From NCBI RefSeq assembly GCF_002835935.1, contig NZ_PJCF01000086.1, positions 62,001 through 126,000 on the forward strand: 64,000 nt of DNA. Direction: 5' to 3'. Below the pieces are notes generated by a model. The model ran no database searches and was not told where the DNA came from. It saw only the letters and a list, made by a program, of their open reading frames with translations. A program made the translations under genes and the position numbers. Of the stretch, positions 1-16,062 are shown in pieces. Position 1 is the first letter of the stretch. The number at the start of each line of letters is the position of its first letter. Source of the DNA: Paraglaciecola sp. MB-3u-78. GTDB lineage: Bacteria; Pseudomonadota; Gammaproteobacteria; Enterobacterales; Alteromonadaceae.

Positions 1-60
1 TTCTCGAGAGTCTGCGTCTGTGTAGGATTGATTATCTTGACTCATCTGTGCGTTAGTCAT
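1..60 (-). CDS. Start of a probable CheW-type chemotaxis adaptor (partial)
   Basis: Only the first 20 codons are in the window, running off its left edge. The ATG at 58-60 overlaps the TGA stop of cheA (57-59) in an ATGA arrangement, so the two genes are translationally coupled. The visible N-terminus is polar and low in complexity and is not diagnostic. CheW, the scaffold linking CheA to receptors, is proposed only because this gene follows cheY and cheA in the same operon. A receptor or other che gene is possible. Confidence 0.5.
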   Translation of the reverse strand, partial: MTNAQMSQDNQSYTDADSRE

Positions 61-2003
61 GTTTTTTTACTCTCGGTACTAGGTGGTTTAACTAAGCCGG
101 CCAAGGATTCAACGTCAAGGATCATGGCAACTCCACCGTCCCCCATAATGGTGGCTCCCGCCACACCTGTTACCCGCTTATAATGTTTTTCTAAACTTTT
201 TATCACTACCTGCTGCTGGCCCACTAAAGCGTCCACCAACAATGCAAAACGTTTTTTACTACTTTCAATCAGCACCACTATGGCTTTATCAGGCTCACTA
301 ATGGCATTCTCGATTTCCATGGTTTTATGCAACGGTATCAGTGGCCAATACTGTTCTCTTATCCATAAAAGGTTGTCATTTGAGATGACTTTTATTTGAT
401 CTTTAGAGGGTTGAATCGACTCGACAATATTCACTAGGGGTACCACAAATATTTGGTCGCCCACTGACACACACATGCCATCCACTATGGCTAAGGTCAG
501 CGGTAAATGAATACGAAACACCGAGCCCTTGCCAAAGGATGATTCAATTTCAATGCGCCCGCCAATGGCTTCTATATTTCGTCTCACCACATCCATACCC
601 ACGCCGCGTCCTGAGACATCTGTTACTTCAACTGCCGTTGAAAAACCGGCTTCAAAAATCAGGTCCCACACTTGGCTATCAGGCATGTTTGAGTCGTGTT
701 CTAGTCCATTCTCAACTGCTTTGGATAAAATTCTTTCGCGGTTCAGACCCGCACCATCGTCGGTGATACTAATCTCTATGCTGCCACCACGCTGTTCGGC
801 GCGTAAGATAACAGTACCGGTTTCAGACTTACCCGAGGCTAAGCGCTGTTCTACTGTTTCAATCCCGTGGTCAATGCTGTTTCTAACTAAGTGGGTCAGA
901 GGGTCAACCAATTTTTCAATCATGCCTTTGTCGATTTCGGTGGTTCCACCTTCTATTTGTAAATCGACTTTTTTACCTAATTTGCTAGACAAATCTCGAA
1001 CCACTCGAGGAAAACGATTAAAGGTTACGCTAATAGGTAACATTCGCATTGACATGACTGACTCTTGAATTTCTCGGGTATTACGTTGTAATTCGGCTAA
1101 TGCGGTCTGTAATTTATCTTCTATCTCTCCCGTCACTTCAGAACCAATCATGGCCAACATCGATTGGGTAATAACCAATTCACCTACCAGATTGACTAGT
1201 GAGTCAATTTTTCCAGTGTCCACTCTAATTGAGGCGGACTCAGCTACTTTTTTGGGTTGTTCAGATACTTTTTGGGACGGGTTGTTTTTACTGGGAGTAG
1301 CCCTTGCAGATGCGTCCGAAGTCTTATCTTTGGCATTGGGGTTTCCGACATTTTTATCATGAAAACCATATGCCTTGTTGTTGTCTTGAGGTTTCATAGG
1401 CATGGTTTCAAAAAAGCCAAAGCCATCCTCATCAGCAGCTGCTTTTGGCTGTTCGACAAGTCCAAAATCGTCGACTTCACCACTAACGTTATCAGTTATG
1501 CTCTCAGGGGAAGAGTCTGCTGTATCGACCGGTGGGTCAGATTCAAATAAACCAAAACCTTCTATGTCATCAGAGTCGTGATCCGTTGTTTCTGCAGATG
1601 CATCCAGTCCACTTTCGTCTGCCAGCACTAACTCAAGGGTTTGAATGCCCGCATCAATGCTTTGTTGGTCGACCTCTTCTTTATTTTTATAGGTATCCAG
1701 TGTTTTTTTGAGCAAATCAACAGTTTCAAGTAATACATTCACCATAGCTTCATTTAGCTGGGTGGTCCCCTGGCGGGCTTTATCTAACAGGTTTTCCATT
1801 ATATGGGTCAAACCGGTTAACGCATCGAAGCCAAATATGCCACTACCGCCCTTAATAGAATGAGCGGCACGAAAAATACTATTTAGCTGTTCTGGATCTG
1901 GATGATTTAAATCCAGTTCCATCAGCTGTTGTTCCATGCTATCTAGATGCTCCTGACTTTCATCAAAGAACACACCATGGAACTGCTCCATATCAATAGA
2001 CAT
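57..2003 (-). CDS. cheA: Chemotaxis histidine kinase CheA
   Basis: CheA autophosphorylates on its Hpt histidine and passes the phosphate to CheY or CheB at receptor arrays. The 648 residues show an N-terminal Hpt domain (about 1-105, His48 in FRAAHSIKGG), a long acidic linker (about 120-255), the dimerisation helices (from about 258, IDSLVNLVGELV), an ATPase domain with N-box HLVRNSIDHGIE and a GRGVGMDVV box, and a C-terminal CheW-like domain. A CheY-binding P2 domain is not recognisable. The linker instead carries repeated FG motifs (GFGLF at 149-153, DFGLV at 179-183, GFGFF at 194-198, YGF at 212-214). The ATG has an AAAGGG ribosome site 6 bases upstream. It lies 18 bases after cheY and overlaps the next gene, so it is in one operon with them. 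Confidence 0.95.
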   Translation of the reverse strand: MSIDMEQFHGVFFDESQEHLDSMEQQLMELDLNHPDPEQLNSIFRAAHSIKGGSGIFGFDALTGLTHIMENLLDKARQGTTQLNEAMVNVLLETVDLLKKTLDTYKNKEEVDQQSIDAGIQTLELVLADESGLDASAETTDHDSDDIEGFGLFESDPPVDTADSSPESITDNVSGEVDDFGLVEQPKAAADEDGFGFFETMPMKPQDNNKAYGFHDKNVGNPNAKDKTSDASARATPSKNNPSQKVSEQPKKVAESASIRVDTGKIDSLVNLVGELVITQSMLAMIGSEVTGEIEDKLQTALAELQRNTREIQESVMSMRMLPISVTFNRFPRVVRDLSSKLGKKVDLQIEGGTTEIDKGMIEKLVDPLTHLVRNSIDHGIETVEQRLASGKSETGTVILRAEQRGGSIEISITDDGAGLNRERILSKAVENGLEHDSNMPDSQVWDLIFEAGFSTAVEVTDVSGRGVGMDVVRRNIEAIGGRIEIESSFGKGSVFRIHLPLTLAIVDGMCVSVGDQIFVVPLVNIVESIQPSKDQIKVISNDNLLWIREQYWPLIPLHKTMEIENAISEPDKAIVVLIESSKKRFALLVDALVGQQQVVIKSLEKHYKRVTGVAGATIMGDGGVAMILDVESLAGLVKPPSTESKKT

Positions 2004-2021: not shown

Positions 2022-2387
2022 TTAACCGAGGACTTTACTGAGCACTTCTAACAATTTTCTGGGGTCAAATGGTTTTACCATCCAACCTGTAGCACCAGCA
2101 GCCTTACCTTGACTCTTAATTGTGTCGCTTGCTTCAGTGGTTAATACCACTATAGGCACAGAGGCATATGCAGACATGGCTCGCAAAGATTTAATCAATG
2201 TCAAACCATCCATCCGTGGCATATTTTGATCGGTTAGTACAAAATCAAAACGGGTATATTTGCATATATCTAAAGCCTCTTGTCCATCTTGGGCTGCTGT
2301 TACTGTATAGTTCGCTGACTTTAGTGTGACCTCAACCATTTGTCTTATAGAGGGTGAATCATCAACTATCAAAATGTTTTTACTCAT
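2022..2387 (-). CDS. cheY: CheY-like single-domain response regulator
   Basis: A stand-alone receiver of 121 residues, the CheY type that takes phosphate from CheA and binds the flagellar switch or another target. The acidic pocket is NILIVDDSP near the start, the phosphoacceptor is Asp53 in LTDQNMPRMDG, the conserved Thr is in VVLTTEA, and the Lys is in MVKPFDP. The frame is open to a TTG at 2402, but the ATG at 2387 gives the usual MSKNILIVDD start of the family, so it is preferred. It is the first intact gene of the leftward che operon, just ahead of cheA. Confidence 0.92.
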   Translation of the reverse strand: MSKNILIVDDSPSIRQMVEVTLKSANYTVTAAQDGQEALDICKYTRFDFVLTDQNMPRMDGLTLIKSLRAMSAYASVPIVVLTTEASDTIKSQGKAAGATGWMVKPFDPRKLLEVLSKVLG

Positions 2388-2489
2388 ATCTATCTCACTC
2401 AATGACTAAGGATTTTTTTGCTCGTTCGTTAACATTCATGTTTTGGCAATTTCAATACTTTTAATCCGGACATGTATTTGCCTGCTATT

Positions 2490-2982: not shown

Positions 2983-3597
2983 TTGAACAATAAAATAATC
3001 TACATAGTGGATGATGAGGAGAACGTTCGAACTACATTGGAAAATGTTTTTCGACTAGCTGGTTTTATTGTCTATGTTTTTGATAATCCTTTTTCGGCAA
3101 TCTCAGCATCACTTGAAACAAAAAACAGTTGTATTTTGCTTGATTTAAGTATGCCCGAAATGGGCGGCATTGAGTTTCAACAACTTTTGCACGAAAAACG
3201 AATTAGTATTCCGATCGTTTTTTATACCGGTAAAGCAGATATTGATTCAGCTGTCGATGCTATGAGTGGTGGCGCTTTTACCCTTGTCCGCAAACCAGCA
3301 GCAAACAGTGTATTGATTGAAAAAGTGCTGGGTGCCATCAAAATGTATAAGGATCAGGACCCTTTTTCTGATGAATCCGAGCAAGCACATGCAAGTTTAC
3401 AGATCCTTTCAAAACGAGAATTACAGGTTGCTTTGCTGGTCGCCAATGGCGAAACCGCTACAGATATAGCTGAGCATTTATTTATAAGCCGCCGGACTGT
3501 AGAGGCCCATCGTGCGAATATCTTTGAAAAGTTAGAAATTAAGTCGGTTGCCCGCTTGGCTCAATTAGTACTGCTGGCTAAGGTGCATTTAATCTGA
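2983..3597 (+). CDS. FixJ/NarL-type response regulator (receiver plus LuxR-type HTH)
   Basis: A 204-residue two-domain regulator. Residues 1-120 are a receiver with the acidic pair in YIVDDEENV, the phosphoacceptor Asp54 in ILLDLSMPEMGG, Thr in FYTGKAD and Lys in LVRKPAA. Residues 140-204 are a LuxR-type helix-turn-helix (LSKRELQVALLVANGETATD, then SRRTVEAHRANIFEKL). Layout and spacing match the FixJ/TodT group. It should bind DNA when phosphorylated. The start is a TTG at 2983 with only a weak ribosome site (GCAGGT). The histidine kinase at 4728 was probably its close downstream neighbour before the insertion sequence at 3674-4647 landed between them. Confidence 0.9.
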   Translation: MNNKIIYIVDDEENVRTTLENVFRLAGFIVYVFDNPFSAISASLETKNSCILLDLSMPEMGGIEFQQLLHEKRISIPIVFYTGKADIDSAVDAMSGGAFTLVRKPAANSVLIEKVLGAIKMYKDQDPFSDESEQAHASLQILSKRELQVALLVANGETATDIAEHLFISRRTVEAHRANIFEKLEIKSVARLAQLVLLAKVHLI

Positions 3598-3665: not shown

Positions 3666-3673
3666 TTGTTTTA
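3666..3673. repeat. Left copy of 8-bp target-site duplication of the IS1595-type element
   Basis: TTGTTTTA directly precedes the left terminal inverted repeat and recurs exactly at 4648-4655 just after the right one. Eight bases is the usual duplication length for IS1595 elements. Confidence 0.93.
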
Positions 3674-4647
3674 CATGCTTCTCCACTTTGCTCAGGCATG
3701 AACTAAACTGTATATGAAAATAAACAGTTTAAGGGAGTTCGAACATGAACACGCCAGAAGCCAGTTTTTTAACGTGGCAACAGCAATTCAGAACGAATAA
3801 AGATTGTCTCCAGTATCTGAAGGAAATGAAGTGGCCTAATGGGTTTATGTGTCCTCAATGTGGTCACGACAATGGGATTGACCTTCACTGCCGAGAATTA
3901 ACCGAATGCAGCCATTGTCATAAGCAAACATCGGTGATGTCAGGTACTTTATTTCATGGTAGTCATCTACCGTTACTCAAATGGTTTTGGGCACTGTATT
4001 TTATAGGCTCAGACAAAGGCAGTATTTCAGCGTTAAGGCTAAGCAAGCTTATTGAAGTGAATTGGAAGACTGCTCGGCTTATGTTAACGAAAGTGAGAGC
4101 GGCTATGGGACACAGGGATAGCCTCTACCGATTGTCGGGCACAATAGAGTTAGATGATGCCTTTGTTGGCGGTAAGCACAAAGGCAAGCGTGGTCGTGGA
4201 GCAGAAGGGAAAACCCCCATTATCATAGCATGTGAAAACAAGCATAAAAAGGCAGGGTTTATCGCAATGAAAGCGGTTAAAAATGTGAATTTTAAAACAG
4301 TAAAAGAATTTGTATCACATCACCTTTTAGCTAATCAGCATGTCAGAACGGATGCTTATCCTGCGTTAAATATTATAGATAAAACACAGCAACATGAGCC
4401 AAGAGTCACGCCAAGTGAAAAGGTAGACGAATGGTTGCCTTGGGTTCATATCGCGATAGGTAATTTGAAAACGTTTTTGTTGGGCACGTTTCATGGCGTT
4501 ACGGGTAATTACTTACAAGAATACTTGAATGAGTTTTGTTATCGGTATAATCGCCGTTTTGTGGAAAAACAAATACCTAATCGATTGTTAAACTTGGCAA
4601 TTATTCATACTCCTTTAAAATCAACCTGAGTTAAATGGAGAAGCATG
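3674..4647 (+). mobile_element. IS1595-family insertion sequence, 974 bp, complete
   Basis: The element is bounded by 23-bp terminal inverted repeats, 3674-3696 (begins CATGCTTCTCCA) and 4625-4647 (ends TGGAGAAGCATG), matching at 20 of 23 positions. Both ends are flanked by the identical 8-bp duplication TTGTTTTA. It carries one intact transposase gene whose stop codon lies inside the right repeat. It sits between a response-regulator gene and a histidine-kinase gene and breaks neither. Intact ends, an intact gene and an exact duplication suggest recent, possibly still active, insertion. Confidence 0.95.
3745..4629 (+). CDS. IS1595-family transposase (ISXO2-like DDE domain)
   Basis: 294 residues that cut and join the ends of the surrounding element. 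The N-terminal third has a zinc ribbon (CPQCGHDNG, then CSHCHK around residues 37-62). The catalytic ISXO2-like domain follows, with an Asp in TIELDDAFVGGKHKGKRG, a second in VRTDAYPAL, and a C-terminal HIAIGNLKTFLLGTFHG segment typical of the group. The end (YLNEFCYRYNRRF) is the usual family terminus. A ribosome site (AAGGGAG) precedes the ATG by 9 bases. Length is normal and no frameshift is seen. Confidence 0.95.
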   Translation: MNTPEASFLTWQQQFRTNKDCLQYLKEMKWPNGFMCPQCGHDNGIDLHCRELTECSHCHKQTSVMSGTLFHGSHLPLLKWFWALYFIGSDKGSISALRLSKLIEVNWKTARLMLTKVRAAMGHRDSLYRLSGTIELDDAFVGGKHKGKRGRGAEGKTPIIIACENKHKKAGFIAMKAVKNVNFKTVKEFVSHHLLANQHVRTDAYPALNIIDKTQQHEPRVTPSEKVDEWLPWVHIAIGNLKTFLLGTFHGVTGNYLQEYLNEFCYRYNRRFVEKQIPNRLLNLAIIHTPLKST

Positions 4648-4655
4648 TTGTTTTA
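4648..4655. repeat. Right copy of 8-bp target-site duplication
   Basis: TTGTTTTA, identical to 3666-3673, directly after the right terminal inverted repeat. Confidence 0.93.
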
Positions 4656-4727: not shown

Positions 4728-5786
4728 ATGCGTTTTTCAGCCAAATTTCTCACCCTATTTATAAGTTTCAGTACCCTGATACTTTTTATAGTGAGTGTGG
4801 CTACTGGCTATTATGTCAACCTTTTACCTCTTTATATCCTGACAATTATCGCCACATCCAACAGCCCTAAAAACACTTTTAAAACAGTATTTTACATGTG
4901 TTTACTGGGTATCTTAATGACTAGTTATCTGGCTCTACCGCAACCCTCAAGTCTAGAGTTAGATGATGTATTGACACCAATTATTGCTCTATTCTCAACT
5001 GTCGCAGCTTATTTATTGCTACGTTCAAGAAATGCCAATCAGTACACTGATACTCAACTACTCATAGATAGGCTGAGGGATCGTCAAGAGATTCAAAAAT
5101 TACAGCAACTTTCAGGTTCCGTAGCCCATGATTTTAATAATGTTATGAGCGTGGTTATGGGTAATGCAGAGTTGTTGAAATATACCTTATCCCAGCCTGA
5201 GAATTCAAAACAATTTATTGATGCCATTTTGGAAGCGGTGCAAAAAGGCATCGACTTGACACAAGATTTATTGTCTTTTGCACAGAAACAATTTTTACAA
5301 CCGGCCGACATTGACTTGAATCAGCTTATTCGCAAACATCTGAGTGACATTGATTTACCCCTAGATGCTAAAAATAAAATCCATTTTACCGAGACGACAG
5401 ATTTATGGATTGCAAAAGTAGACCCTAAGTTTTTGGAGCAGTGTTTATTACATTTAATTCACAATGCGATCCAAGCCAATTCAAGTCATATAGAAATAAA
5501 GGTTTCAAATATTTTCGATAATTCAAGTGTCGAAGATACTTTAGTAGATACGAAGCGTTATTTGTCAATTATTATTTCTGACGATGGGCTTGGCATGTCA
5601 GATCAAAACCTTAGCCGCATTTATCAACCCTTTTTTACCACCAGAAAAGCTGAAGGGGCTAAAGGTTTAGGTTTGAGTGCGGTCTGGGGGGGGTGTCAGC
5701 AAAGTGGGGGGCATATTTATGTTTACTCTACATTGGGAAAAGGTACAACATTCAACATTATTATTCCTGCAACTATGTTCGAGTAG
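4728..5786 (+). CDS. Membrane histidine kinase with HDFNN-type phosphoacceptor
   Basis: About 352 residues. The first 100 hold several hydrophobic segments (FLTLFISFSTLILFIV, YILTIIATSN, FYMCLLGILMTSYLAL, IIALFSTVAAYLLL) and no separate sensor domain, so the signal may be sensed in the membrane or by a partner. A coiled linker leads to the dimerisation helix with the phosphoacceptor His (about 134) in SVAHDFNNVMSVVMGNAELL. The ATPase domain has an N-box (HLIHNAIQANSS), DDGLGMS and GAKGLGLSAVWGG. The frame opens at a GTG (4716), but the ATG at 4728 is preferred, with AAAGGAAG upstream. Likely partners are the FixJ-like regulator upstream or the receivers downstream. Confidence 0.88.
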   Translation: MRFSAKFLTLFISFSTLILFIVSVATGYYVNLLPLYILTIIATSNSPKNTFKTVFYMCLLGILMTSYLALPQPSSLELDDVLTPIIALFSTVAAYLLLRSRNANQYTDTQLLIDRLRDRQEIQKLQQLSGSVAHDFNNVMSVVMGNAELLKYTLSQPENSKQFIDAILEAVQKGIDLTQDLLSFAQKQFLQPADIDLNQLIRKHLSDIDLPLDAKNKIHFTETTDLWIAKVDPKFLEQCLLHLIHNAIQANSSHIEIKVSNIFDNSSVEDTLVDTKRYLSIIISDDGLGMSDQNLSRIYQPFFTTRKAEGAKGLGLSAVWGGCQQSGGHIYVYSTLGKGTTFNIIIPATMFE

Positions 5787-6029
5787 TAAAAAAACACAAC
5801 CAAAAATTCGAGTCACGAACTAAAAACAAACGTTATTACAAGATTCCAGCTGTGCTTTATGGTGAATTCTTTAACCTTTTTTGACTCTTTCTGTAAATCG
5901 ATAGATAAAATGGGCACTCAGAATCAGTAATTCTACGTATTTACCACTCTCCTAATTAATTTAAACTAAATATCAATCTACTGTCACCGCAACACATTAT
6001 GGCGAGCGTTCTTAGAATATGGATTTTAT

Positions 6030-7205
6030 ATGACCACGACAAAAAATAAGATATTAATTGCTGATGACGACCCAGAATTGTTATCACTTATGCAGAGCTT
6101 ATTGTCTCCCCATTTTGAAGTGGTCGTTGCCAAAGACGGTGATGAGGCTCAAAAATGTATAGATAATGAAAAATTTTTATTTTTAATATTAGACATTCAT
6201 CTTCCAAAGGTAACGGGGCTGGAGTTATGCCTAGGCATTTTAGAAAGTACCAAAATACCCAAGCCACATATTGTTATTTTAAGTGGTGATGACAGTTCAA
6301 AAACTATTCGCTCTGCCTACGAATTAAATATTGATGATTATATTATTAAGCCAATAAGTTCCCTTGCCTTTGTTCAAAGAATGCAACGTTTGGAAAGAGA
6401 TATATTGGATCTGGCTAATCTAGAAGATCTTCGCAAGCAAACATTGAATATGGCAGATACTGCTATGCGCCAGGCGTCTGAATACGGAGGTGCATTAGAG
6501 TTAATTGCACGTCTTAACTATATTTCAGACCCCGTTCAACTCGCAAAAGAAGTCGCTGAATATCTAAAATCGTCTGGTTATTTCACCGCCATACAATTCC
6601 GTTCAGAGATGATGACAGTTAATTTTGACATTGATTTAAGTGAATGTTCGGAAGTTGAAATCAAAGTTTTCAACTTATTACATCAACGTGGCCGTATTTA
6701 TAGTTTTGGCCGAAGGATCATATTTAACGATGAGCATGTTTCGATTCTAGTTAAAAACATGCCGCCAGTATCCTCACATTCATACGGTATGTTAGTGGAT
6801 ATAGCAGCCAAAATAGTACCAGCCATAAACAGCCGTTTTATCAGCTTATGTAATGAAAAAGCCATAAACAATAGTGTGACTATTTTGTCTGATGCCATGG
6901 ACATGGTTGCAAAAGGAATTTCAGCAATGGAAGTTGAAAAAAGGGAAATAATACAAGGAGTCATCACCCAAATTAGCAGTAGTTTTCATAAACTTGAACT
7001 GAACGACGAACAAGAGCAATTTTTCATTCATTTGATTGAAACACAACTTCAAAATAAAGAGGTCAGTAGTGACTTTTTAACAGTACGAGATACGCTGGAA
7101 AACTGCCTTACATCGGTTCAATCTGCACAGAAGATGACCTTAGCCACAAACACAGATAATGATGAATCATCACAATCAACGTATCTAGATGTTGAATTAT
7201 TTTAA
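6030..7205 (+). CDS. Response regulator with GAF-like C-terminal half of unknown output
   Basis: 391 residues. Residues 1-120 form a receiver (ILIADDDPE, phosphoacceptor Asp55 in FLILDIHLPKVTG, Lys in YIIKPISS). A helical linker (about 125-165) leads to a region with GAF-like spacing (YISDPVQLAKEVAEYLKSSG, then SFGRRIIFNDEHVSILVKNM), followed by a long helical tail. From memory, the GRR-x-x-FN...VS-x-LVKNMP pattern recurs in poorly characterised gammaproteobacterial regulators. No DNA-binding or enzymatic output is visible. The last five residues are DVELF. The gap to the preceding kinase is 243 bases with no recognisable site. It is the first gene of a tightly spaced set with the next three. 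Confidence 0.8.
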   Translation: MTTTKNKILIADDDPELLSLMQSLLSPHFEVVVAKDGDEAQKCIDNEKFLFLILDIHLPKVTGLELCLGILESTKIPKPHIVILSGDDSSKTIRSAYELNIDDYIIKPISSLAFVQRMQRLERDILDLANLEDLRKQTLNMADTAMRQASEYGGALELIARLNYISDPVQLAKEVAEYLKSSGYFTAIQFRSEMMTVNFDIDLSECSEVEIKVFNLLHQRGRIYSFGRRIIFNDEHVSILVKNMPPVSSHSYGMLVDIAAKIVPAINSRFISLCNEKAINNSVTILSDAMDMVAKGISAMEVEKREIIQGVITQISSSFHKLELNDEQEQFFIHLIETQLQNKEVSSDFLTVRDTLENCLTSVQSAQKMTLATNTDNDESSQSTYLDVELF

Positions 7206-7246
7206 TTTGTATTTTATGAACCTTAGCTATTAAGTGCTGAAACTAA

Positions 7247-8368
7247 ATGCCGAGTGAAATTTTGAACGATAAACTCAACACAAAGCAAGATTTTGATTAT
7301 ATCAATGAATATAAAGGATATGCGCTGTTAGATAATCTTCTGGAAGTAAAACTGCATACCCAAATGATTGGCGATCTGCTGAGTATTGCCACGCTGCCAC
7401 ATAGCATTAAACAGTATAATGCTTACCTTTATTCATTTATTAAGACATTAGTTAACAACGCAAAAACCAGCCATCATGGATGGAGTCAGGAACAACTAAT
7501 ATACGATACTCAACATTATGATTGCGCGGTAAATGTTGAAAAAGACACAGCGACTGGACTTGAACAGACACACTTATTTATGAGTTATTCCTTAAGCTCA
7601 AAATTACAAACACCCTTGTTAGAATTAGCCGAAACTGAAGTCAAAATCAGTGAAATGTATGCCCATATTGGACACGAAATAAATAATCCATTAGCCATCG
7701 CACTGGGAAATTTAGCGTTTTTAAAAAACACATTGCTTGATAACCCTTTAAGCTCGAAAAACACTGATCATTACCTGCATGCTCTTGATAGTAGTTTAGA
7801 GCGCATCCAATCAATCGTTTCAGGTCTTAGATATTTATCCAGTGATACATCCCATGAAGCCAAGTCTGAAGTACATATTTATGATTTACTTGAAATTACC
7901 GAATCTTCAGACCATCCAGTTTCAAAAAAACATGACACAAACCTCAATATAAAACAGGTATCCGTTTCACCAAATTTATCAAACGTGAATGCCGTGATCA
8001 TAGATGATGAACCTATGTTATTAGAAGTGGTAGCTGCTAACTTAGCATCGTTTGGGATGAATGTTTTTGCGACCGATAGTTTCAAAAGAGTGCTGGATGA
8101 AATCAAAAATGGTCAGTATCAATTATTGATCACCGATATGTGTATGCCTGATTGTGACGGTTTGGAGTTAATTAAAAAAGTTAAAAAGCTATCTGCTAAC
8201 AAGGTCAAATGTATATTAATGACGGGTGGCATAGTGAATGGAGTAAACCCTAACAGTTTATATTCTGATCAGATAGACGGTGTTTTAGACAAACCATTTT
8301 GCCTCAATAACTTGTTGGAATTGCTCAACAAATTAGATTTAAAACCGGAGAATCAAGATGTCGGATAA
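7247..8368 (+). CDS. DHp-receiver protein lacking a kinase ATPase domain
   Basis: 373 residues. Residues 1-125 are not recognised. A histidine-kinase-like dimerisation helix follows, with His143 in YAHIGHEINNPLAIALGNL, then a second helix (SLERIQSIVSGLRYL). No ATP-binding domain comes next: there is no N, G1 or G2 box. A short linker leads to a receiver (VIIDDEPML, phosphoacceptor near Asp300 in LLITDMCMPDCDG, Lys in VLDKPF). The protein thus has a phosphorylatable His and Asp but cannot phosphorylate itself, and is best read as a phosphorelay intermediate or decoy (inference). It lies 41 bases after the preceding regulator and overlaps the BLUF gene by 11 bases. Confidence 0.82.
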   Translation: MPSEILNDKLNTKQDFDYINEYKGYALLDNLLEVKLHTQMIGDLLSIATLPHSIKQYNAYLYSFIKTLVNNAKTSHHGWSQEQLIYDTQHYDCAVNVEKDTATGLEQTHLFMSYSLSSKLQTPLLELAETEVKISEMYAHIGHEINNPLAIALGNLAFLKNTLLDNPLSSKNTDHYLHALDSSLERIQSIVSGLRYLSSDTSHEAKSEVHIYDLLEITESSDHPVSKKHDTNLNIKQVSVSPNLSNVNAVIIDDEPMLLEVVAANLASFGMNVFATDSFKRVLDEIKNGQYQLLITDMCMPDCDGLELIKKVKKLSANKVKCILMTGGIVNGVNPNSLYSDQIDGVLDKPFCLNNLLELLNKLDLKPENQDVG

Positions 8369-9020
8369 ATCAATCCTTAGAAAATTTATTCATGACCTCT
8401 CTAATAAAATCATGATTTTAGAAGGTTACATAACACTAGTTAATATAAAACCTGATTTTGACTTAAAGCTGATGATTTCTAAGTTAGAAGAGAATGTTGT
8501 ATCGGTTGTACAGATTTTGGAAAACATGCGGGGATATGTAAAACAGGAGTCCGATGAAACGGCTTTAATCTCCCTGGTCTATAGCAGCAAAGTGAAGGAA
8601 TATATGACTGGCCTTACTCTTGAGTCTGAGCTAGAAAAAATTGAGCTATCTTCCGCTGCAAATAATACACACATCAATGTAACCGGATACTTATTGTATA
8701 TGGATGGCTATTTCATTCAGTACCTTGAAGGTAGCCCTAAGGATGTTGAAACACTCTATTTAAAAATATCCCTCGACCCTCGCCACCATTCGATAACATT
8801 GCTGTCCCACGAAACAATCACAGAAAGATCCTTCAATAAGTGGACTAAACTATACAGAATGAACCTCAATAATCATTCTCAGATCACTGATATTTTGAAG
8901 TCTATTGTAGGTGAAAAACAACGATTATTATCTAAAACAGAATCACTGGCGCTAATTAACTTTGTCGCTTTGATAAATAAAAACAACCCGCCAAACTTTG
9001 AAGGCCGTAATACAGTATGA
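8358..9020 (+). CDS. BLUF blue-light sensor with N-terminal DHp-like helices
   Basis: 220 residues, cytoplasmic. Residues about 68-170 match a BLUF domain, which binds FAD and senses blue light. The flavin-site residues are present: Tyr75 (SLVYSS), Asn103 (ANNTHINVTGYLLY), Gln121 (GYFIQYLEG) and Trp162 (FNKWTK). The position two after this Trp, often Met in the family, is Lys164. Residues 1-60 form a helix pair headed by His12 in RKFIHDLSNKIMILEGYI, resembling the HDxxN phosphoacceptor helix of histidine kinases, but no ATPase domain exists. A GGAG site precedes the ATG. The gene overlaps its neighbours by 11 and 4 bases, so light sensing is coupled to the DHp-receiver and receiver-EAL proteins. 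Confidence 0.9.
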   Translation: MSDKSILRKFIHDLSNKIMILEGYITLVNIKPDFDLKLMISKLEENVVSVVQILENMRGYVKQESDETALISLVYSSKVKEYMTGLTLESELEKIELSSAANNTHINVTGYLLYMDGYFIQYLEGSPKDVETLYLKISLDPRHHSITLLSHETITERSFNKWTKLYRMNLNNHSQITDILKSIVGEKQRLLSKTESLALINFVALINKNNPPNFEGRNTV

Positions 9021-10231
9021 ATATTAAAAGTATTTATATTATTGACGATGAGCCTGATTTATCAGAGCTCATCTCCCAGTTTGCTATGACACACAAAATC
9101 AAAACACATGCAGCTAGTGCTTGGAACAACGTTTGCCTAAAAAAACTGCAAGAAACTGATTTCATTTTACTCGACCTAAACCTTCCTGATTTAGATGGCC
9201 TGGATATTTTAGAACAACTCAAAAAAAACAAGGTAACTGTGCCTATCGTTTTTTGCTCTGGGCAGGATGATAATGTTGTCGATACGGCAGCAGATCTGCT
9301 TAAAGCACATGGTTTAAATTATGCTGGGAAAATATTAAAACCTTTTTCTTTTGCTGACTTTACTAAACTATTAGTTACATTAAATAAAAGGGACGTAACT
9401 AAGGACTTGGTTGCCCCTGAAAGCTCAATTTCCGAAACACCTTTAGATGTACTCGACAAAAAACAGTTACAAAATGCCATTGCAAATAACTATTTTTGTG
9501 TTGTTTTTCAACCTCAGTTCAACTCACAGAATCATCAGTTATGTGGAATAGAATGCCTAGCTCGTTTAGACATACCGGGTAAAGAACGGATCATGCCAGA
9601 TTCGTTTATTCCAGCACTTATTGCCCATGATCTCATTGACGACTTCACATTCAATATTATTAAATATGGCTTAAACGTATTAAATGACTTACCCCTTCCC
9701 AGCGATATAAAAATTGCGTTTAATATTTCTAGAACCTCTTTAACCAATGAGTTCATCACTAAGCTTTGTGATTGCTTTAAACCATTTCGATTTAATGCAT
9801 CTGACTTAGTTTGGGAAATAACTGAAACGGCTGCATTAGAGATAAGAAAAACCACAAAAAAATTGATGACTAAGCTACGATTAAACGGTTTTAATCTATC
9901 ACTGGACGATTTCGGAACGGGTTATTCAACACTCCAAGAGATAGATGCACTGCCATTTAATGAGGTTAAAATAGATAAACAGTTTATTCACTCCATGCAT
10001 GATAAAAAAACCTCTATGGCAATAGTATTGGCAACCATTCAGTTGGCCAAGTTACTTGATTTTAGAGTAGTAGCAGAAGGGGTAGAAACACTGCAACAGG
10101 TTGAGACGCTTAAGTTACTTAACTGTGAAGTTTCCCAAGGTTATTTTTATTCACGTCCTCTAGATAGCTTAGATTTTGAGTCTTTTATACATATAAATAA
10201 TAATCAACAGCAGGAAATGGTCTCCCTCTAG
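9017..10231 (+). CDS. Receiver-EAL cyclic-di-GMP phosphodiesterase
   Basis: 404 residues. The N-terminal receiver (1-120) has IYIIDDEPDL, phosphoacceptor Asp53 in LLDLNLPDLDG, a Ser/Thr position in VFCSGQDD and Lys in GKILKPFS. The EAL domain (about 155-395) hydrolyses cyclic-di-GMP. Its signature is ECLARLD instead of EALxR, with the catalytic Glu kept, and the other key sites are present: FNISRTSL, WEITETAAL, SLDDFGTGYSTL, VKIDKQFI, VVAEGVET and SQGYFYSRPL. It is therefore probably active and controlled by phosphorylation. The ATGA overlap with the BLUF gene points to coupled translation and a light-controlled output. Confidence 0.92.
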   Translation: MNIKSIYIIDDEPDLSELISQFAMTHKIKTHAASAWNNVCLKKLQETDFILLDLNLPDLDGLDILEQLKKNKVTVPIVFCSGQDDNVVDTAADLLKAHGLNYAGKILKPFSFADFTKLLVTLNKRDVTKDLVAPESSISETPLDVLDKKQLQNAIANNYFCVVFQPQFNSQNHQLCGIECLARLDIPGKERIMPDSFIPALIAHDLIDDFTFNIIKYGLNVLNDLPLPSDIKIAFNISRTSLTNEFITKLCDCFKPFRFNASDLVWEITETAALEIRKTTKKLMTKLRLNGFNLSLDDFGTGYSTLQEIDALPFNEVKIDKQFIHSMHDKKTSMAIVLATIQLAKLLDFRVVAEGVETLQQVETLKLLNCEVSQGYFYSRPLDSLDFESFIHINNNQQQEMVSL

Positions 10232-10315: not shown

Positions 10316-11269
10316 TCACTCAGTTGTTCGACCTTTGCTTTGCAGCTCGCTTAATTTAGCTGAATAAACACACCCGCGACCATTCTTTTTTGCCACACTT
10401 AACGCTTTGTCTGCGCTGGCCAACAATAATTCAGGGCTATTCTCAATTGAGGGTAATAAAGCGTAGCAGCCAATGGATAGAGTCACCATTTCGCGCTCAG
10501 CACTAGGGGCATGTGGGAACGCATGATTGGCAATATTTTTGAGTATATTTTCACCTATTTGGTTGGCACCTATTAGATCGGTATCTGGTAGCAAAATAAC
10601 AAACTGGTGCTCTGTATAACGAGCAATAAAATCGGCAGTACGTCGAATCGAACCATGCAAAATACTGGCAATTTTTTTTATGCAATCATCACCCTGTGTG
10701 TGTCCAAAATGGTTGACATAAGGTTTGAATTCATCTATTTCAAGCATTAAAAGCGCCAGTGACAGTTTATTACGCTTGGCACGCAGCCATTCTACTGCAA
10801 GCTTTTCGTCTAATGCTCTAGGATTATATAAACCCGTTATACTGTCAATAAAGGTAAGGGATTGCAGCCTATCGATAGCTTGTTTATGAGCGATATGGGC
10901 TTTGGTTCTAACCGCAACAATGCGTGGGTTTACCGGTTTATGCATAAAATCTGTCGCGCCATAATCAAATATCTTTTGCTCGAAATCGGCCTCATTATGA
11001 CTGGTGATAAATAGTATCGGAATATTGGCCGTTACTTCGTTTGCTTTTAGCTCACGGCAAACCTCAAAACCACTCATACCAGGCATTTCAATATCAAGTA
11101 GAATAATATCAGGCATCTCACTTTCGGCAAGTTTCAAAGCACTACAACCCGAAGTAGCGAATACAATCCGTCCTACTCCAAGAAGCGCTTTACTGGTTGC
11201 CATAATGAACGAAGGATCATCATCAACAATTAAGATGGTGGCAGAATTAAAATCACTTGATAATGTCAT
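10316..11269 (-). CDS. Receiver-GGDEF protein with degenerate active site and intact I-site
   Basis: 317 residues. The receiver (1-125) has ILIVDDDPS, phosphoacceptor Asp59 in ILLDIEMPGMSG, Thr in LFITSHNE and Lys in DFMHKPVN. The C-terminal half has the GGDEF fold (DSITGLYNPRALDEKL, then FGHTQGDDCIKKIA), but the GGDEF active-site loop reads RYTEHQF, so cyclase activity is unlikely. The inhibitory-site pattern RxxD (RTAD) is present five residues before that loop, so it may bind cyclic-di-GMP as an effector (inference). The ATG at 11269 is preferred over an upstream GTG (11278): it forms an ATGA overlap with the hybrid kinase stop and has AGGGAG 8 bases upstream. Confidence 0.88.
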   Translation of the reverse strand: MTLSSDFNSATILIVDDDPSFIMATSKALLGVGRIVFATSGCSALKLAESEMPDIILLDIEMPGMSGFEVCRELKANEVTANIPILFITSHNEADFEQKIFDYGATDFMHKPVNPRIVAVRTKAHIAHKQAIDRLQSLTFIDSITGLYNPRALDEKLAVEWLRAKRNKLSLALLMLEIDEFKPYVNHFGHTQGDDCIKKIASILHGSIRRTADFIARYTEHQFVILLPDTDLIGANQIGENILKNIANHAFPHAPSAEREMVTLSIGCYALLPSIENSPELLLASADKALSVAKKNGRGCVYSAKLSELQSKGRTTE

Positions 11270-14200
11270 TGAACGCACTCCCTATTGATATTTTGAGATG
11301 AAGTAAGCAATGTTAAAGCTTGTTGAAAATGCAGGTCTTCTAACATAGATTCAAATTCCTCAAAGACTTTATTACCTAACATAAAGCGTAAATTTACTGA
11401 ATATTGCTCTACTGTGTCCAGCGCCGATAACTCTTGTTTTTCTAAGGCAATAAATAGCGTCTCTAATTGCTTTTGATCCAGAGGTGTTGCATTTTCAATC
11501 GCAATTTGATCATGTTTTTTTCGTACATTTTGCTGTTGTGATAGAAACTCAGCACTGTTAATCCGTAAATTAATGAGGTTTTTTGCTACCTTTACTAATA
11601 ATGGATTTATTTCACTGGCGTTGTTGCGCAAAGCTATCTCAGCTTCCCCTGCAACTTGATATAATTCCTGAGCACCGATAAGACCGGCACTGCCACGCAA
11701 TTTATGTATGTGTGCTGCCATGGCCAACCTTTCAGACTCATCTAGGTTTTTTGTTGAATGACCGTCTTTAAGGGTTTCCAAATGTTGAAATTCATTAAAT
11801 AGACGTTCAAGAATTGTCACAAACAACACCAAATCACCATTCAGTAAATCAGTATTGTTGGTCATGCCTTCTATATTTGGCCAACTATCACCGATGACTT
11901 CACTGTCTGTGGCGAGACTTTCAAAATTAATAATACGATGTCGATAACACTCAACCAGTTTTCGCAAAGTGTTGATTAATTTTGAAGGCTCAATAGGTTT
12001 AGTTAAAAAGGCATTCATACCTGAAGCGATTCCGCGTTTTCTTTCTTCCACTAAAGTGCCTGCAGTTAGCGCAACTACGGGTAATGTTTTGAGCCCAAGC
12101 TCTTCTCGAATATGCTGTGTCGTTTCCAGACCATCCATTTCTGGCATCTGCACATCCATCAATACAATATCAAACACATCCGGGCTTAAACGTAATTGTC
12201 TCAGAGCTGCTTTACCACTGCTTAATGTGGTCACCTTGGCACCATTTCGAATCAGTATTTGTCCAACCACTTCAAGATTTATGTCACTGTCATCTACTAC
12301 TAATACATTTACCCCTGGTAACCATCTGGCTTTCAGTGCCTCGGTTCGAGTGGCTTCAAGTACTCGTTGAGAATCGTCGGTATGTTTGACAACCGCATCA
12401 TTGACAGCATTAAACAACTGCGCCCCACTTATGGGTTTATATAATATTTTGTCAATCAATTGACCCGTATCTAATGCGGCAATATGCGCCTTTTCATAGG
12501 CTGAAACGACTAACACAGCGGGTAACTTTTTGTTTCCAAGATATGTGTTTAACTTAGACACAGCCTCTAGCCCATCCATTTCTGGCATATGCCAGTCAAT
12601 CATTAGGACATCAGGTAACTTGCGCCCAGACTCAACCAGCGCAATCATCTCTTCAACAAGCACTACACCTGAACTGACACTCCTGACATGCCAACCTAAC
12701 GCTTTAGCATAATCTTCAATCTGTTGACGGTCGATATCATCATCATCTACAACCCAGACGTACAGTGTATTTATACTAGAGTCTAAGGCATGTAGGTCTT
12801 CTTGATTGAGTACTTCAATAGGTAGTGTTAGCCAAAACTGACTGCCTTCATCAGGAATGCTATTGACACCGAGTTCACCCTGTAACAAATCGACCATACT
12901 GCTGACGATTGACAAACCCAAACCGGTTCCACCAAAATGCCTACTAGTACTAGAGTCCGCTTGGCTAAATGGCTGAAAAATACTTTTTTGTATTTCTTTA
13001 CTGACACCAATTCCAGTGTCTGCCACTTCGAAGTAGACCTTAACCCTGTGTTCGGAAAGTGAATGGGATTCGACCACTTTAGCACTAAGCACTATAGTGC
13101 CATGACGTGTAAACTTAATCGCATTGCCAATCAGGTTGGTTAATATTTGACGTAACATTTTGCTGTCAGTATTTATGCAGTCAGGTAAAGTATGGCCGAG
13201 TTGAAGATTAAGTTGTAATCCCTTTAATGCTGCTTGCTCAGAAAATGCACTTTGCAGCTCTTCGAGTAACTCATGGAGCAGACAAGGCTCCTCATTGAGT
13301 TCCATTTCATTTGCTTCGATTTTGGCTAAGTCTAAAACGTCATTGACAATACCTAGTAAGGAGCGCCCAGAAAGTTGCACTTTATCCACTAGATTACGCT
13401 GTGCATCATCTAATTGTGAATCCCCAAGTAGGTATGAGAGTCCAATAATGGCGTTGAGTGGCGTACGGATTTCATGACTCATATTGGCTAAAAAAGCACT
13501 TTTCGCCAAATTGGCTCTTTTCGCTGCATCGGTTGCGTCACGCAATGAACTTTCGATACTTAGCCTTTGTGAAATATTGCGCACCGATGCGGCGACTAAT
13601 AACCTATCATCAAGCTGTACTTCGCTAAGACTGACCTCAACGGGGAACAATGCTCCATCCGAATAACGACCATAAAGTTTCTCTCCATTGTCAATTAGCC
13701 AATCTATCGGATTCTTAACAATTTTTTTCACATGAGCATCATGATTTGCGGCGACATTTTGCGGGACAAGCATATTGATATTCTTGCCCATCATATATTT
13801 ACGGTCATAACCAAATAAGTGTTCAACTTGTGAATTTACAAGCTCTACCACGCCCTTTGAATCAGTAAATATCATGGCTTCAGGAGATAACTCGGTGAGC
13901 CTTTTAAACATACTATCTTTGCCACGCTGAGTCTCTAATTCTAGCTCAGCCTGTGTGGCAATTATCTTGCGCTGATTGGCCACCCAGAATAAATAAACCA
14001 CAATCACACTTAAAAATGTTAAGCCGAGTAATGGTAAAAAGAGGTATAAAAGTGCTAACTCTACTTTTTCATATACCTTTGATGTGAATAACGTCACCTT
14101 AAATGTTGATTTTCCACTTTTGGATGCACTTTCGGCTGACAAAATAGTGCCTGAAGGCCCTTCCCAGGTTTTAATATTTCTATTTTTCAAACCGAAAGGT

Positions 14201-16062
14201 GACCGAACAAGGGTGAATTCATTGTCCCATTGATAAGTCTCATTGAAGTCAGAACGGAAGGTTTTTGCCAAATCTGGATGAAATACATAATCACCACTGT
14301 GATTAATGACATAAATAACATGTTCAGGTTTTGCCAATTCAGCCAATTCAGTGAAGATGGATTTAGCATCAACATTGATAATGATTATGCCAAAGGGTGA
14401 AAAATTCTCATTAAAAACGGGAGTAGCGTAACGCAATGTCGGTCTTATAGGCGTTTCGATGACATCATTTTCCACATTGAGTTCAAGGTCAGAGACCCAA
14501 ATATCTCCTTGGTTCAATGCAAGTGTTTCTTGCAAATAGGAACTATCGCTCTTGTATTGCAACTGTGCTTCGGGAACAACAAAAATACCGTTTTCTGTGC
14601 GCTCTATACGGATCAATTCTCGACCACTGGGATTAGCTCTAATTAGACGCAATTGATACACATCGGGAGACGAAACCATATAGGCTTTAAATACTTCGGC
14701 TAATTGTCCTTTCCAAGCATCGAGGGATAAAAGTGATGTTGGCTTTATTCCCGTATTCGAAGCCCGCACAATGCCTCTAACGGCTGGGGTGGATTGCAAT
14801 AAGGTTAAGTTTTCATCATAGCTTTCATGCTCTCGCTCCATAATTTTCAGACTATGTTGTAGATTTTCTGTGAGATTGGCACTGGTTGATTTAAACTCTT
14901 GTTGCAAATATGACAGAGCACTGGCACCGAACAAAAACACTATTAATATGACGTAGGCTTGAATCAACCTTTTAAAAAAAAGGCTGCTTAAAAAGTAGCG
15001 AATGCCTATGGCTTTAGTCTTGTTTTTAGCTAGCTGGTCACTGTCGCGTTTGATTAAACTTATGGATAATAATAAAGCGACAATACTTGTGCTTATTAGA
15101 CAAATAGTGGCTACCCAAACTGGTGACCATAAGCCCAGAGCTGCAGACATCTCAGTTAAAGAATGACTCTCTAACAGCCAATTACGTCCCATAAAGTGTA
15201 TATCGCGTGTATCACTAAAGGTGGTATATTCGCTCAACACGTCTATAGAATGGGTTGCAAAAAAAGGCTTGTTTTCGGTTTTATCAGTCAACACAACAGA
15301 CATTTCTCGCAGCACCGGCCCCAAATCAGCCAGTACTTTATCCACCACTAGCGGCGCATATGCCCATCCTAACGTGGCTTTTTCTCTTGCATCTGGGGTG
15401 CTCAGGTGCAGTGCTGGATCATAAATAGGTAACAGGGTTAAAAATCCACTCCCCTTCTTTCCTTCTGCTTGCACTAAAGTGATGGGGGCAGTGAGTCTAA
15501 ACTTGCCATCACGGGCCGCAGCAAGCGCCGCATTACGCCGATTTGTTTCAGAGCCAATATCAAGACCTGTTGCACCCTGATTATCTTTTTCGGGGTAAAT
15601 ATACTGAATAATAAAACGATTTTGTTGATGTGCAGTAAGCGTTCTTATAGCAAAGTTTGGTCTTCCATCTGCACGTGCATTGGCAATAAACTTGGCTTCA
15701 TAAGAAGGGCTGACATTACGTATAAGGCCAAAGCCAAGTGCCCCAGGGAATTCGCTTTTTAAATCACGAGAATTAATGTACCGTTCAAAATTTGAGCGTT
15801 TTATTTGATTGATATCTGCGGCTAACATAGCCCCACGAATACTTAGCAAACCATACTCGTATAGCTCAAAACGTTTTATGATAAGTTGTTCAACTGAGTC
15901 GGTTAATTGCTCCACACGGGACTGCATGGCAGCTGTATTTTGTTGATGTATAAACCATGTTGTTAAAATGGTGACTATGATGCCGATAAACCACACAGTC
16001 AACATAGGTAATTTTACTGACCAATTAAAATTTTTGAATACCTTTTGTGGTGTACTTATCAT
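11266..16062 (-). CDS. CHASE/Cache/PAS hybrid sensor histidine kinase with two receivers and Hpt
   Basis: A very large 1598-residue membrane kinase. In order: transmembrane helix (about 19-38), periplasmic CHASE domain (about 70-300), two transmembrane segments (about 311-335, 365-390), a second Cache-like periplasmic domain (about 400-660), a transmembrane segment near 680-700, PAS (about 710-840), dimerisation domain with phosphoacceptor His near 862 (NMSHEIRTPLNAIIGLSYLL), ATPase (LIGNAIKFT, ADTGIGV, GGTGLGLSIV), receiver 1 (Asp near 1154, MIDWHMPEMDG), receiver 2 (near 1300, LMDVQMPEMDG) and Hpt (His near 1452, HIHKLRGSAGL). It forms an internal His-Asp-His relay. Two stacked periplasmic sensors suggest two ligands. 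It overlaps the receiver-GGDEF gene downstream, a likely phosphorelay target. Confidence 0.93.
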   Translation of the reverse strand: MISTPQKVFKNFNWSVKLPMLTVWFIGIIVTILTTWFIHQQNTAAMQSRVEQLTDSVEQLIIKRFELYEYGLLSIRGAMLAADINQIKRSNFERYINSRDLKSEFPGALGFGLIRNVSPSYEAKFIANARADGRPNFAIRTLTAHQQNRFIIQYIYPEKDNQGATGLDIGSETNRRNAALAAARDGKFRLTAPITLVQAEGKKGSGFLTLLPIYDPALHLSTPDAREKATLGWAYAPLVVDKVLADLGPVLREMSVVLTDKTENKPFFATHSIDVLSEYTTFSDTRDIHFMGRNWLLESHSLTEMSAALGLWSPVWVATICLISTSIVALLLSISLIKRDSDQLAKNKTKAIGIRYFLSSLFFKRLIQAYVILIVFLFGASALSYLQQEFKSTSANLTENLQHSLKIMEREHESYDENLTLLQSTPAVRGIVRASNTGIKPTSLLSLDAWKGQLAEVFKAYMVSSPDVYQLRLIRANPSGRELIRIERTENGIFVVPEAQLQYKSDSSYLQETLALNQGDIWVSDLELNVENDVIETPIRPTLRYATPVFNENFSPFGIIIINVDAKSIFTELAELAKPEHVIYVINHSGDYVFHPDLAKTFRSDFNETYQWDNEFTLVRSPFGLKNRNIKTWEGPSGTILSAESASKSGKSTFKVTLFTSKVYEKVELALLYLFLPLLGLTFLSVIVVYLFWVANQRKIIATQAELELETQRGKDSMFKRLTELSPEAMIFTDSKGVVELVNSQVEHLFGYDRKYMMGKNINMLVPQNVAANHDAHVKKIVKNPIDWLIDNGEKLYGRYSDGALFPVEVSLSEVQLDDRLLVAASVRNISQRLSIESSLRDATDAAKRANLAKSAFLANMSHEIRTPLNAIIGLSYLLGDSQLDDAQRNLVDKVQLSGRSLLGIVNDVLDLAKIEANEMELNEEPCLLHELLEELQSAFSEQAALKGLQLNLQLGHTLPDCINTDSKMLRQILTNLIGNAIKFTRHGTIVLSAKVVESHSLSEHRVKVYFEVADTGIGVSKEIQKSIFQPFSQADSSTSRHFGGTGLGLSIVSSMVDLLQGELGVNSIPDEGSQFWLTLPIEVLNQEDLHALDSSINTLYVWVVDDDDIDRQQIEDYAKALGWHVRSVSSGVVLVEEMIALVESGRKLPDVLMIDWHMPEMDGLEAVSKLNTYLGNKKLPAVLVVSAYEKAHIAALDTGQLIDKILYKPISGAQLFNAVNDAVVKHTDDSQRVLEATRTEALKARWLPGVNVLVVDDSDINLEVVGQILIRNGAKVTTLSSGKAALRQLRLSPDVFDIVLMDVQMPEMDGLETTQHIREELGLKTLPVVALTAGTLVEERKRGIASGMNAFLTKPIEPSKLINTLRKLVECYRHRIINFESLATDSEVIGDSWPNIEGMTNNTDLLNGDLVLFVTILERLFNEFQHLETLKDGHSTKNLDESERLAMAAHIHKLRGSAGLIGAQELYQVAGEAEIALRNNASEINPLLVKVAKNLINLRINSAEFLSQQQNVRKKHDQIAIENATPLDQKQLETLFIALEKQELSALDTVEQYSVNLRFMLGNKVFEEFESMLEDLHFQQALTLLTSSQNINRECVQ

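Follow-up and report, generated by a model that had tools for sequence, protein, structure and literature searches.

Genes at the locus

The window analyzed in this study is the whole of a 64,000-nucleotide stretch from Paraglaciecola sp. MB-3u-78 (contig NZ_PJCF01000086.1, positions 62,001 to 126,000), and the subject is a block of five genes within it, encoding a histidine kinase (HK), a receiver protein with an uncharacterised tail (herein RECx), a DHp-receiver protein, a BLUF protein that begins with a helix pair carrying an H-box (H-box/BLUF protein), and a receiver-EAL protein (REC-EAL) (Table 1). A first-pass annotation, made from the sequence alone, had described these genes as a split blue-light phosphorelay ending in a cyclic di-GMP (c-di-GMP) phosphodiesterase. 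All five open reading frames (ORFs) were confirmed on the same strand, the overlaps of 11 and 4 bases among the last three genes are exact, and Pfam agrees with the main domains given for the HK, the DHp-receiver protein, the BLUF protein and REC-EAL. For the second gene, described as a regulator with a GAF-like tail, Pfam recovered the receiver (Response_reg) but not GAF, the tail giving no match at E <= 1.

The HK has a hydrophobic N-terminus with membrane helices, as read by eye, and the H-box HDFNN; in the DHp-receiver protein an H-box and a receiver are present and the ATPase domain is absent by Pfam. The match of REC-EAL to RocR extends over residues 2-388 (E 2e-41), and inspection of its translation by eye revealed the receiver residues and the EAL-type motifs GIECLARL, DDFGTGYS, KIDKQF, AEGVET and QGYFY, which we take to be catalytic. 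By homology, REC-EAL is predicted to be a RocR-like c-di-GMP phosphodiesterase; against the PvrR equivalog NF052596 it scored 178.9 bits, below the cut-off of 580.

The block adjoins a divergent chemosensory operon, which runs on past the left end of the window (stretch L064), in the order cheY-cheA-cheW-Aer2-like receptor-cheR-cheD-cheB. Pfam confirms the cheY, cheA, cheW, cheR, cheD and cheB families in this operon. Its first receptor matches Aer2 (3vol, E 3.9e-66) and contains HAMP_2, MCPsignal and three PAS domains, all of which carry FHxNPxHQ and EW; its signalling part aligns with Tsr over about 310 residues, which we take to suit class 36H. The gene order is essentially that given for F7 clusters, with a single cheW ahead of the receptor, in the sections of PMC7184735 drawn on here. 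By gene order together with the Aer2-like receptor, the operon is assigned to the Aer2/Che2 type (F7-like). Downstream of cheB in the same genome (L064:6581-10401) there are also a second cheW, a PAS receptor (L064:7600-9885) that is a candidate for the mcpA-like receptor of F7 clusters, and a second cheD, the product of which has a longer end with DVDMC in place of the C-terminal tail described below.

Table 1. Positions of the block, of its neighbours in the window and of the proteins with the shared C-terminal tail (L-numbers denote other stretches).
Feature	Position	Strand	Remarks
cheA (Hpt, H-kinase_dim, HATPase and CheW domains)	57-2003	-	divergent chemosensory operon
cheY (single receiver domain)	2022-2402	-	first gene of the operon, divergent from the block
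FixJ/LuxR-type response regulator	2983-3597	+	between cheY and the block; membership uncertain
IS1595-type insertion sequence	3673-4648	+	transposase 3745-4629; between cheY and HK, outside the system
HK	4716 (GTG) or 4728 (ATG)-5786	+	Pfam HisKA+HATPase_c; complete
RECx (receiver and uncharacterised tail ending DVELF)	6030-7205	+	Pfam Response_reg; che-operon neighbour conserved
DHp-receiver protein without ATPase domain	7247-8368	+	Pfam HisKA+Response_reg; H-box HEINN, His143
H-box/BLUF protein (N-terminal helix pair, then BLUF domain 70-163)	8358-9020	+	Pfam BLUF, E 4.7e-25
REC-EAL (RocR-like c-di-GMP phosphodiesterase by homology)	9017-10231	+	Pfam Response_reg+EAL (E 7.1e-57)
Tail carriers (RECx, Aer2-type CheD, related GGDEF)	window 6030-7205, L064:11725-12348, L033:13260-14288, L109:7659-8681, L149:2297-3337, L150:3630-4667

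Linkage of RECx and REC-EAL to the chemosensory operon

The tail of RECx alone was used as the query against 295 genomes of the family, and the loci were examined for 30 of them; che genes in the relatives were named by BLASTP or BLASTX against the genes of Alteromonas arenosi (G094), themselves named by eye. The tail found a match at E <= 0.001 in 109 of the 295 genomes. At all 14 loci outside the window genome with RECx at E <= 1.4e-52, cheY and cheA stand directly and divergently beside RECx; the 15 weaker loci for which DNA was available all lack that cheY, and one of them (G043) adjoins a different che-type operon. G289 also has a second RECx, with a weaker match (E 2.9e-45), away from che genes, and in the window genome itself the FixJ-type gene, the IS1595 element and the HK intervene between cheY and RECx. 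Two genomes belonging to a second family of the order encode, convergently with cheB of such an operon, a protein resembling RECx (27-28% identity). RECx of G289 is present as two ORFs of 120 and 244 amino acids (L106:9812-10968), by frameshift, sequencing error or a real split.

REC-EAL found a match at E <= 1e-60 in 14 family genomes, the window's counted. The seven nearest proteins outside the window genome (E <= 4.4e-77) are those of G289, A. arenosi, Aestuariibacter salexigens (G016), G051, G014, G019 and G250, and five of these are encoded inside the che locus, either directly after RECx (G289, G051, G019 and A. arenosi) or at the far end of the che operon (A. salexigens); those of G014 and G250 are outside it. 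When the 15 che-linked loci are taken together (14 plus the window), REC-EAL is present in six. By sequence, RECx is a conserved neighbour of the che operon, and REC-EAL, though often part of the locus, is optional.

D[IVA]ELF is the C-terminus of RECx at all 15 che-linked loci and, with small changes, of many of the weaker homologues, and the CheD encoded between cheR and cheB ends in [IV][DE]LF followed by 0-2 residues at all 15 loci. Of five GGDEF proteins matched by the GGDEF protein of L033 (itself counted), four end in DVDLF, DIDLF, DIDLF and DAELF; the fifth (L109:3037-4575, matched over only 170 residues) and a REC-GGDEF protein encoded in the window are without the tail. In 50 genomes of the order we located 25 CheD places, 15 of them with [IV][DE]LF and all of these in operons with a receptor ending in W[EA][ESA]F, one with LEMF and nine without the tail, three of the nine (L176, L179 and L180) also following receptors that end in W[EA][ESA]F. 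The tail was considered as a mark of RECx genomes only, and this was dropped because Aer2-type CheDs elsewhere in the order carry it (RECx was not searched there). The tail common to RECx, CheD and some of the GGDEF proteins looks like a docking peptide; it may dock on CheY, as the FliM and CheZ peptides do, or in the pocket that takes the end of the receptor. The GWEEF end of Pseudomonas aeruginosa Aer2 is described as being bound by CheR2 and CheB2 (PMC7698151, in the part used here).

The H-box/BLUF protein in relatives

Scanning with the BLUF protein at E <= 0.001 gave matches in 100 of 295 genomes of the family, 77 of 394 of the order and 46 of 369 of the class. Among the matches listed, an open-frame match over the H-box was found only in the window genome, A. 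arenosi and A. salexigens, those of G218 and G250 reaching query residues 20 and 23 via stop codons. A fourth H-box BLUF protein is encoded in G019 after cheB and a short BLUF gene; it was missed by the scans, so that the counts of this protein are lower bounds. Scanning genome contigs with the single protein gave nothing, and a three-row profile recovered the two relatives of A. arenosi and A. salexigens.

All four H-box BLUF proteins are encoded at che loci that also carry a REC-EAL of this clade, supporting the earlier view that the BLUF protein and REC-EAL belong together. The two genes adjoin in the window and in A. salexigens, whereas some 12 kb separate them in the remaining two. Such a REC-EAL (E <= 4.4e-77) is present in 8 of the 295 genomes, and the chance of the first three carriers all belonging to these is 1.3e-5, uncorrected for kinship. 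The co-occurrence of the last three genes, which the first-pass annotation had suggested as a check, was not supported: no DHp-receiver match listed in the 295 family genomes starts before residue 132 (the matches cover the DHp stretch or the receiver only, in a search dominated by receivers); among the matches listed, the DHp-receiver/BLUF/REC-EAL triple is confined to the window genome. The DHp-receiver gene would be a local addition to the relay.

The BLUF domain of the window keeps the flavin-site residues Tyr75, Asn103 and Gln121, and also Trp162, and has Lys164 where the coupling Met, two residues after the Trp, is expected. Of 51 other BLUFs, 48 have Met and 3 have Leu at this position; the H-box proteins have Lys, Ser, Ser and Gly. 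Cys replaces the flavin Tyr in A. salexigens, and in G019 the Tyr, Asn and Gln are all lost and Pfam gives no match at E <= 0.001. The absence of the coupling Met from all four and the loss of flavin residues from two speak against light as the conserved input. For comparison, the M93A mutant of PixD is reported, in the sections of PMC5899715 consulted, to retain the red shift and lose the protein response, behaving as if locked in the signalling state. Light control in the window strain is possible, if weakly supported; its BLUF domain may still bind flavin, although Lys164 probably alters the output.

Each of the three relatives carries, beside the H-box BLUF gene, a short BLUF gene of the ordinary kind, and the window genome has no second BLUF at E <= 0.001. 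A short BLUF gene follows cheB in at least five of the 15 loci (A. arenosi, A. salexigens, G019, G123 and G011), a lower bound, the sequence covered past cheB being as short as some 1 kb in G051. A conserved PAS-plus-helical protein also adjoins BLUF genes (L032:11177-12265, L033:12102-13187, L149:3341-4423 and L184:3560-4651) and ends in DDELF or DELW in three of these four cases. Beside the che/BLUF/REC-EAL locus of A. salexigens (L033:14895-17969), a bacteriophytochrome-like hybrid kinase (PAS_2-GAF-PHY-PAS-HisKA-HATPase-receiver) is encoded, a possible second light input.

A proposed c-di-GMP branch and its alternatives

The reading of the block was moved away from a blue-light phosphorelay because the block adjoins the chemosensory operon; the unusual gene set reported by the first-pass annotation is real, light is no longer the leading explanation, and a c-di-GMP branch of the chemosensory locus is preferred. 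We consider it an even chance that the block is such a branch of an Aer2/Che2-type (F7-like) locus, with the H-box protein acting on the receiver of REC-EAL. Phosphate from the adjacent HK and/or CheA would be passed to the receivers of RECx and REC-EAL, and the BLUF protein would, with its N-terminal pair of H-box helices, bind the REC-EAL receiver and may pass phosphate to it, this contact setting the rate of c-di-GMP hydrolysis. The BLUF half would be an optional, partly decaying input. A wider proposal, which we put forward with considerable doubt, is that the Aer2/F7 system drives c-di-GMP via RECx, REC-EAL and sometimes GGDEF, that the tail holds RECx, CheD and GGDEF on one hub, and that the H-box protein represents a histidine phosphotransferase of a new, CA-less kind, joined to a photoreceptor domain in the course of being lost.

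Several observations weigh against the branch. REC-EAL was not seen within the stretch examined at 9 of the 15 che-linked loci, so that the branch would be optional, and the 15 congeneric genomes also sampled contain no close RECx and a single weak match (E 1.9e-26). The GC content of the block is 35.5-37.5% vs 40-43% in the flanks, and the block could thus be a recent accretion. As regards the helix pair, Pfam gives no DHp match in the N-terminal module of the BLUF protein; a single-sequence hidden Markov model test with 13 local DHps did not separate this module from shuffled sequences, many of which scored higher; and the window module shares just 21-25% identity with the other three, less than its BLUF half shares with two of them.

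In the helix pair itself, helices are predicted at residues 3-20 and 36-61 with block confidence (pLDDT) of 45-74, in an AlphaFold2 model of the protein from 54 rows (overall pLDDT 77, against 40 from three sequences). His12 and Asn16 of the H-box HDLSN, together with Gly23 and Leu27, are kept across the four proteins, and the register fits HDFNN and HEINN of the nearby kinases, with Gly at +11 and Leu at +15. Among the three relatives the module is 45-55% identical vs 11-36% for the BLUF halves; this contrast is not seen in pairs with the window protein, the BLUF half of which is 20-34% identical to theirs. Profile comparison with DHp gave a probability of 23-26%; in sets of 300 and 600 column shuffles, one shuffle each reached the real score (a rotation control was uninformative because local alignments survive rotation). 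In a fold search, the best 50 of 1176 hits (E <= 10) were all BLUF proteins or BLUF-containing cyclases, with the helix pair unmatched to DHp. Of the DHp-like helices claimed at first, the helix pair is predicted and its H-box is present, Pfam and the single-sequence test are negative, and the profile comparison is suggestive; DHp ancestry is likely but unproven.

This uncertain homology leaves room for a direct allosteric partnership of the BLUF protein and REC-EAL without phosphotransfer, in which the helix pair would serve for dimerisation or docking. The genes adjoin and overlap in the window and adjoin in A. salexigens, and the control of PapA by PapB and the sequestering of PixE by PixD offer precedents. 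We regard it as unlikely, since the H-box residues are kept in the four proteins while the flavin residues are not, and mere dimerisation would not need a conserved His. In PapB-PapA of Rhodopseudomonas palustris, BLUF and EAL phosphodiesterase are described as separate proteins, blue light exerting its control through contact between them (PMC8846402, as far as used here); the first-pass annotation, in naming only fusions of sensor and enzyme among known BLUF-EAL proteins, is accordingly incomplete. PapB consists of BLUF alone and PapA of EAL alone, whereas here the BLUF protein has an H-box pair, the EAL protein has a receiver and both are at a chemosensory locus. PixD-PixE of Synechocystis pairs a BLUF with a response-regulator-type protein, but PixE is a CheY-PATAN phototaxis protein and no c-di-GMP enzyme, and PixD keeps the Met lost here (PMC5812497 and PMC5899715, both in part).

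Quite unlikely, in our judgement, is the original proposal that blue light alters phosphate flow through the HK, the DHp-receiver protein and the H-box/BLUF protein to REC-EAL. The window BLUF keeps its Tyr, Asn, Gln and Trp and is the sole BLUF match in its genome at E <= 0.001, and the His and Asp carriers are all encoded within one block; yet the residue losses described above, the short BLUF that could do the sensing in three relatives (the window genome has none) and the lack of a full-length DHp-receiver relative among the matches listed all argue against it. Least probable is that REC-EAL and BLUF came together at a signalling hotspot without sharing a pathway, as the low GC of the block, the IS1595 element inside the region and the variable gene content between loci would suggest, because REC-EAL stands at the same locus in all four H-box BLUF carriers, though only 8 of 295 genomes have one (E <= 4.4e-77), and all 14 close orthologues of RECx stand next to cheY.

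The preferred reading, a c-di-GMP branch of the chemosensory locus, may be set beside the known systems. The operon order and the Aer2-like PAS receptor are shared with the F7 stage 1/2 clusters of P. aeruginosa, S. oneidensis and V. cholerae, and the function of these systems is described as unclear in the sections of PMC7184735 used. RECx, the linked phosphodiesterase and the shared tail are named, testable output candidates for the ancestral F7 (Aer2/Che2) array, and this ancestral system would gain a function if the wider proposal is true; the H-box/BLUF protein would be a case of a signalling protein that keeps its helical part as the photoreceptor disappears. Shewanella Che1 is described with CrsR/CrsA, linked to RpoS (PMC9855816, in part), and the accessories here are instead RECx, REC-EAL (6 of 15 loci) and at some loci BLUF and GGDEF genes. 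RocR and PvrR share the arrangement of receiver then EAL, but the window REC-EAL is under the PvrR cut-off and is linked to che genes and an H-box protein. In Spongiibacter CSC3.9 a BLUF gene is also directly beside a che cluster, and blue light raises che expression but not in the BLUF mutant; the main text of that report (PMC8805636) makes no mention of EAL, c-di-GMP or a histidine kinase. A search of titles and abstract openings of open-licence papers found no BLUF/REC-EAL/che locus of this kind described.

Two further features were noted next to the block. The IS1595-type element, with 24-bp terminal inverted repeats (88%), stops about 70-80 bases upstream of the HK start and could influence HK transcription. 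On the opposite strand and convergent with REC-EAL, window positions 10316-16062 encode two proteins, the REC-GGDEF and a hybrid kinase of 1598 residues (CHASE-PAS, two receivers and an Hpt), a pair that might supply an opposing cyclase.

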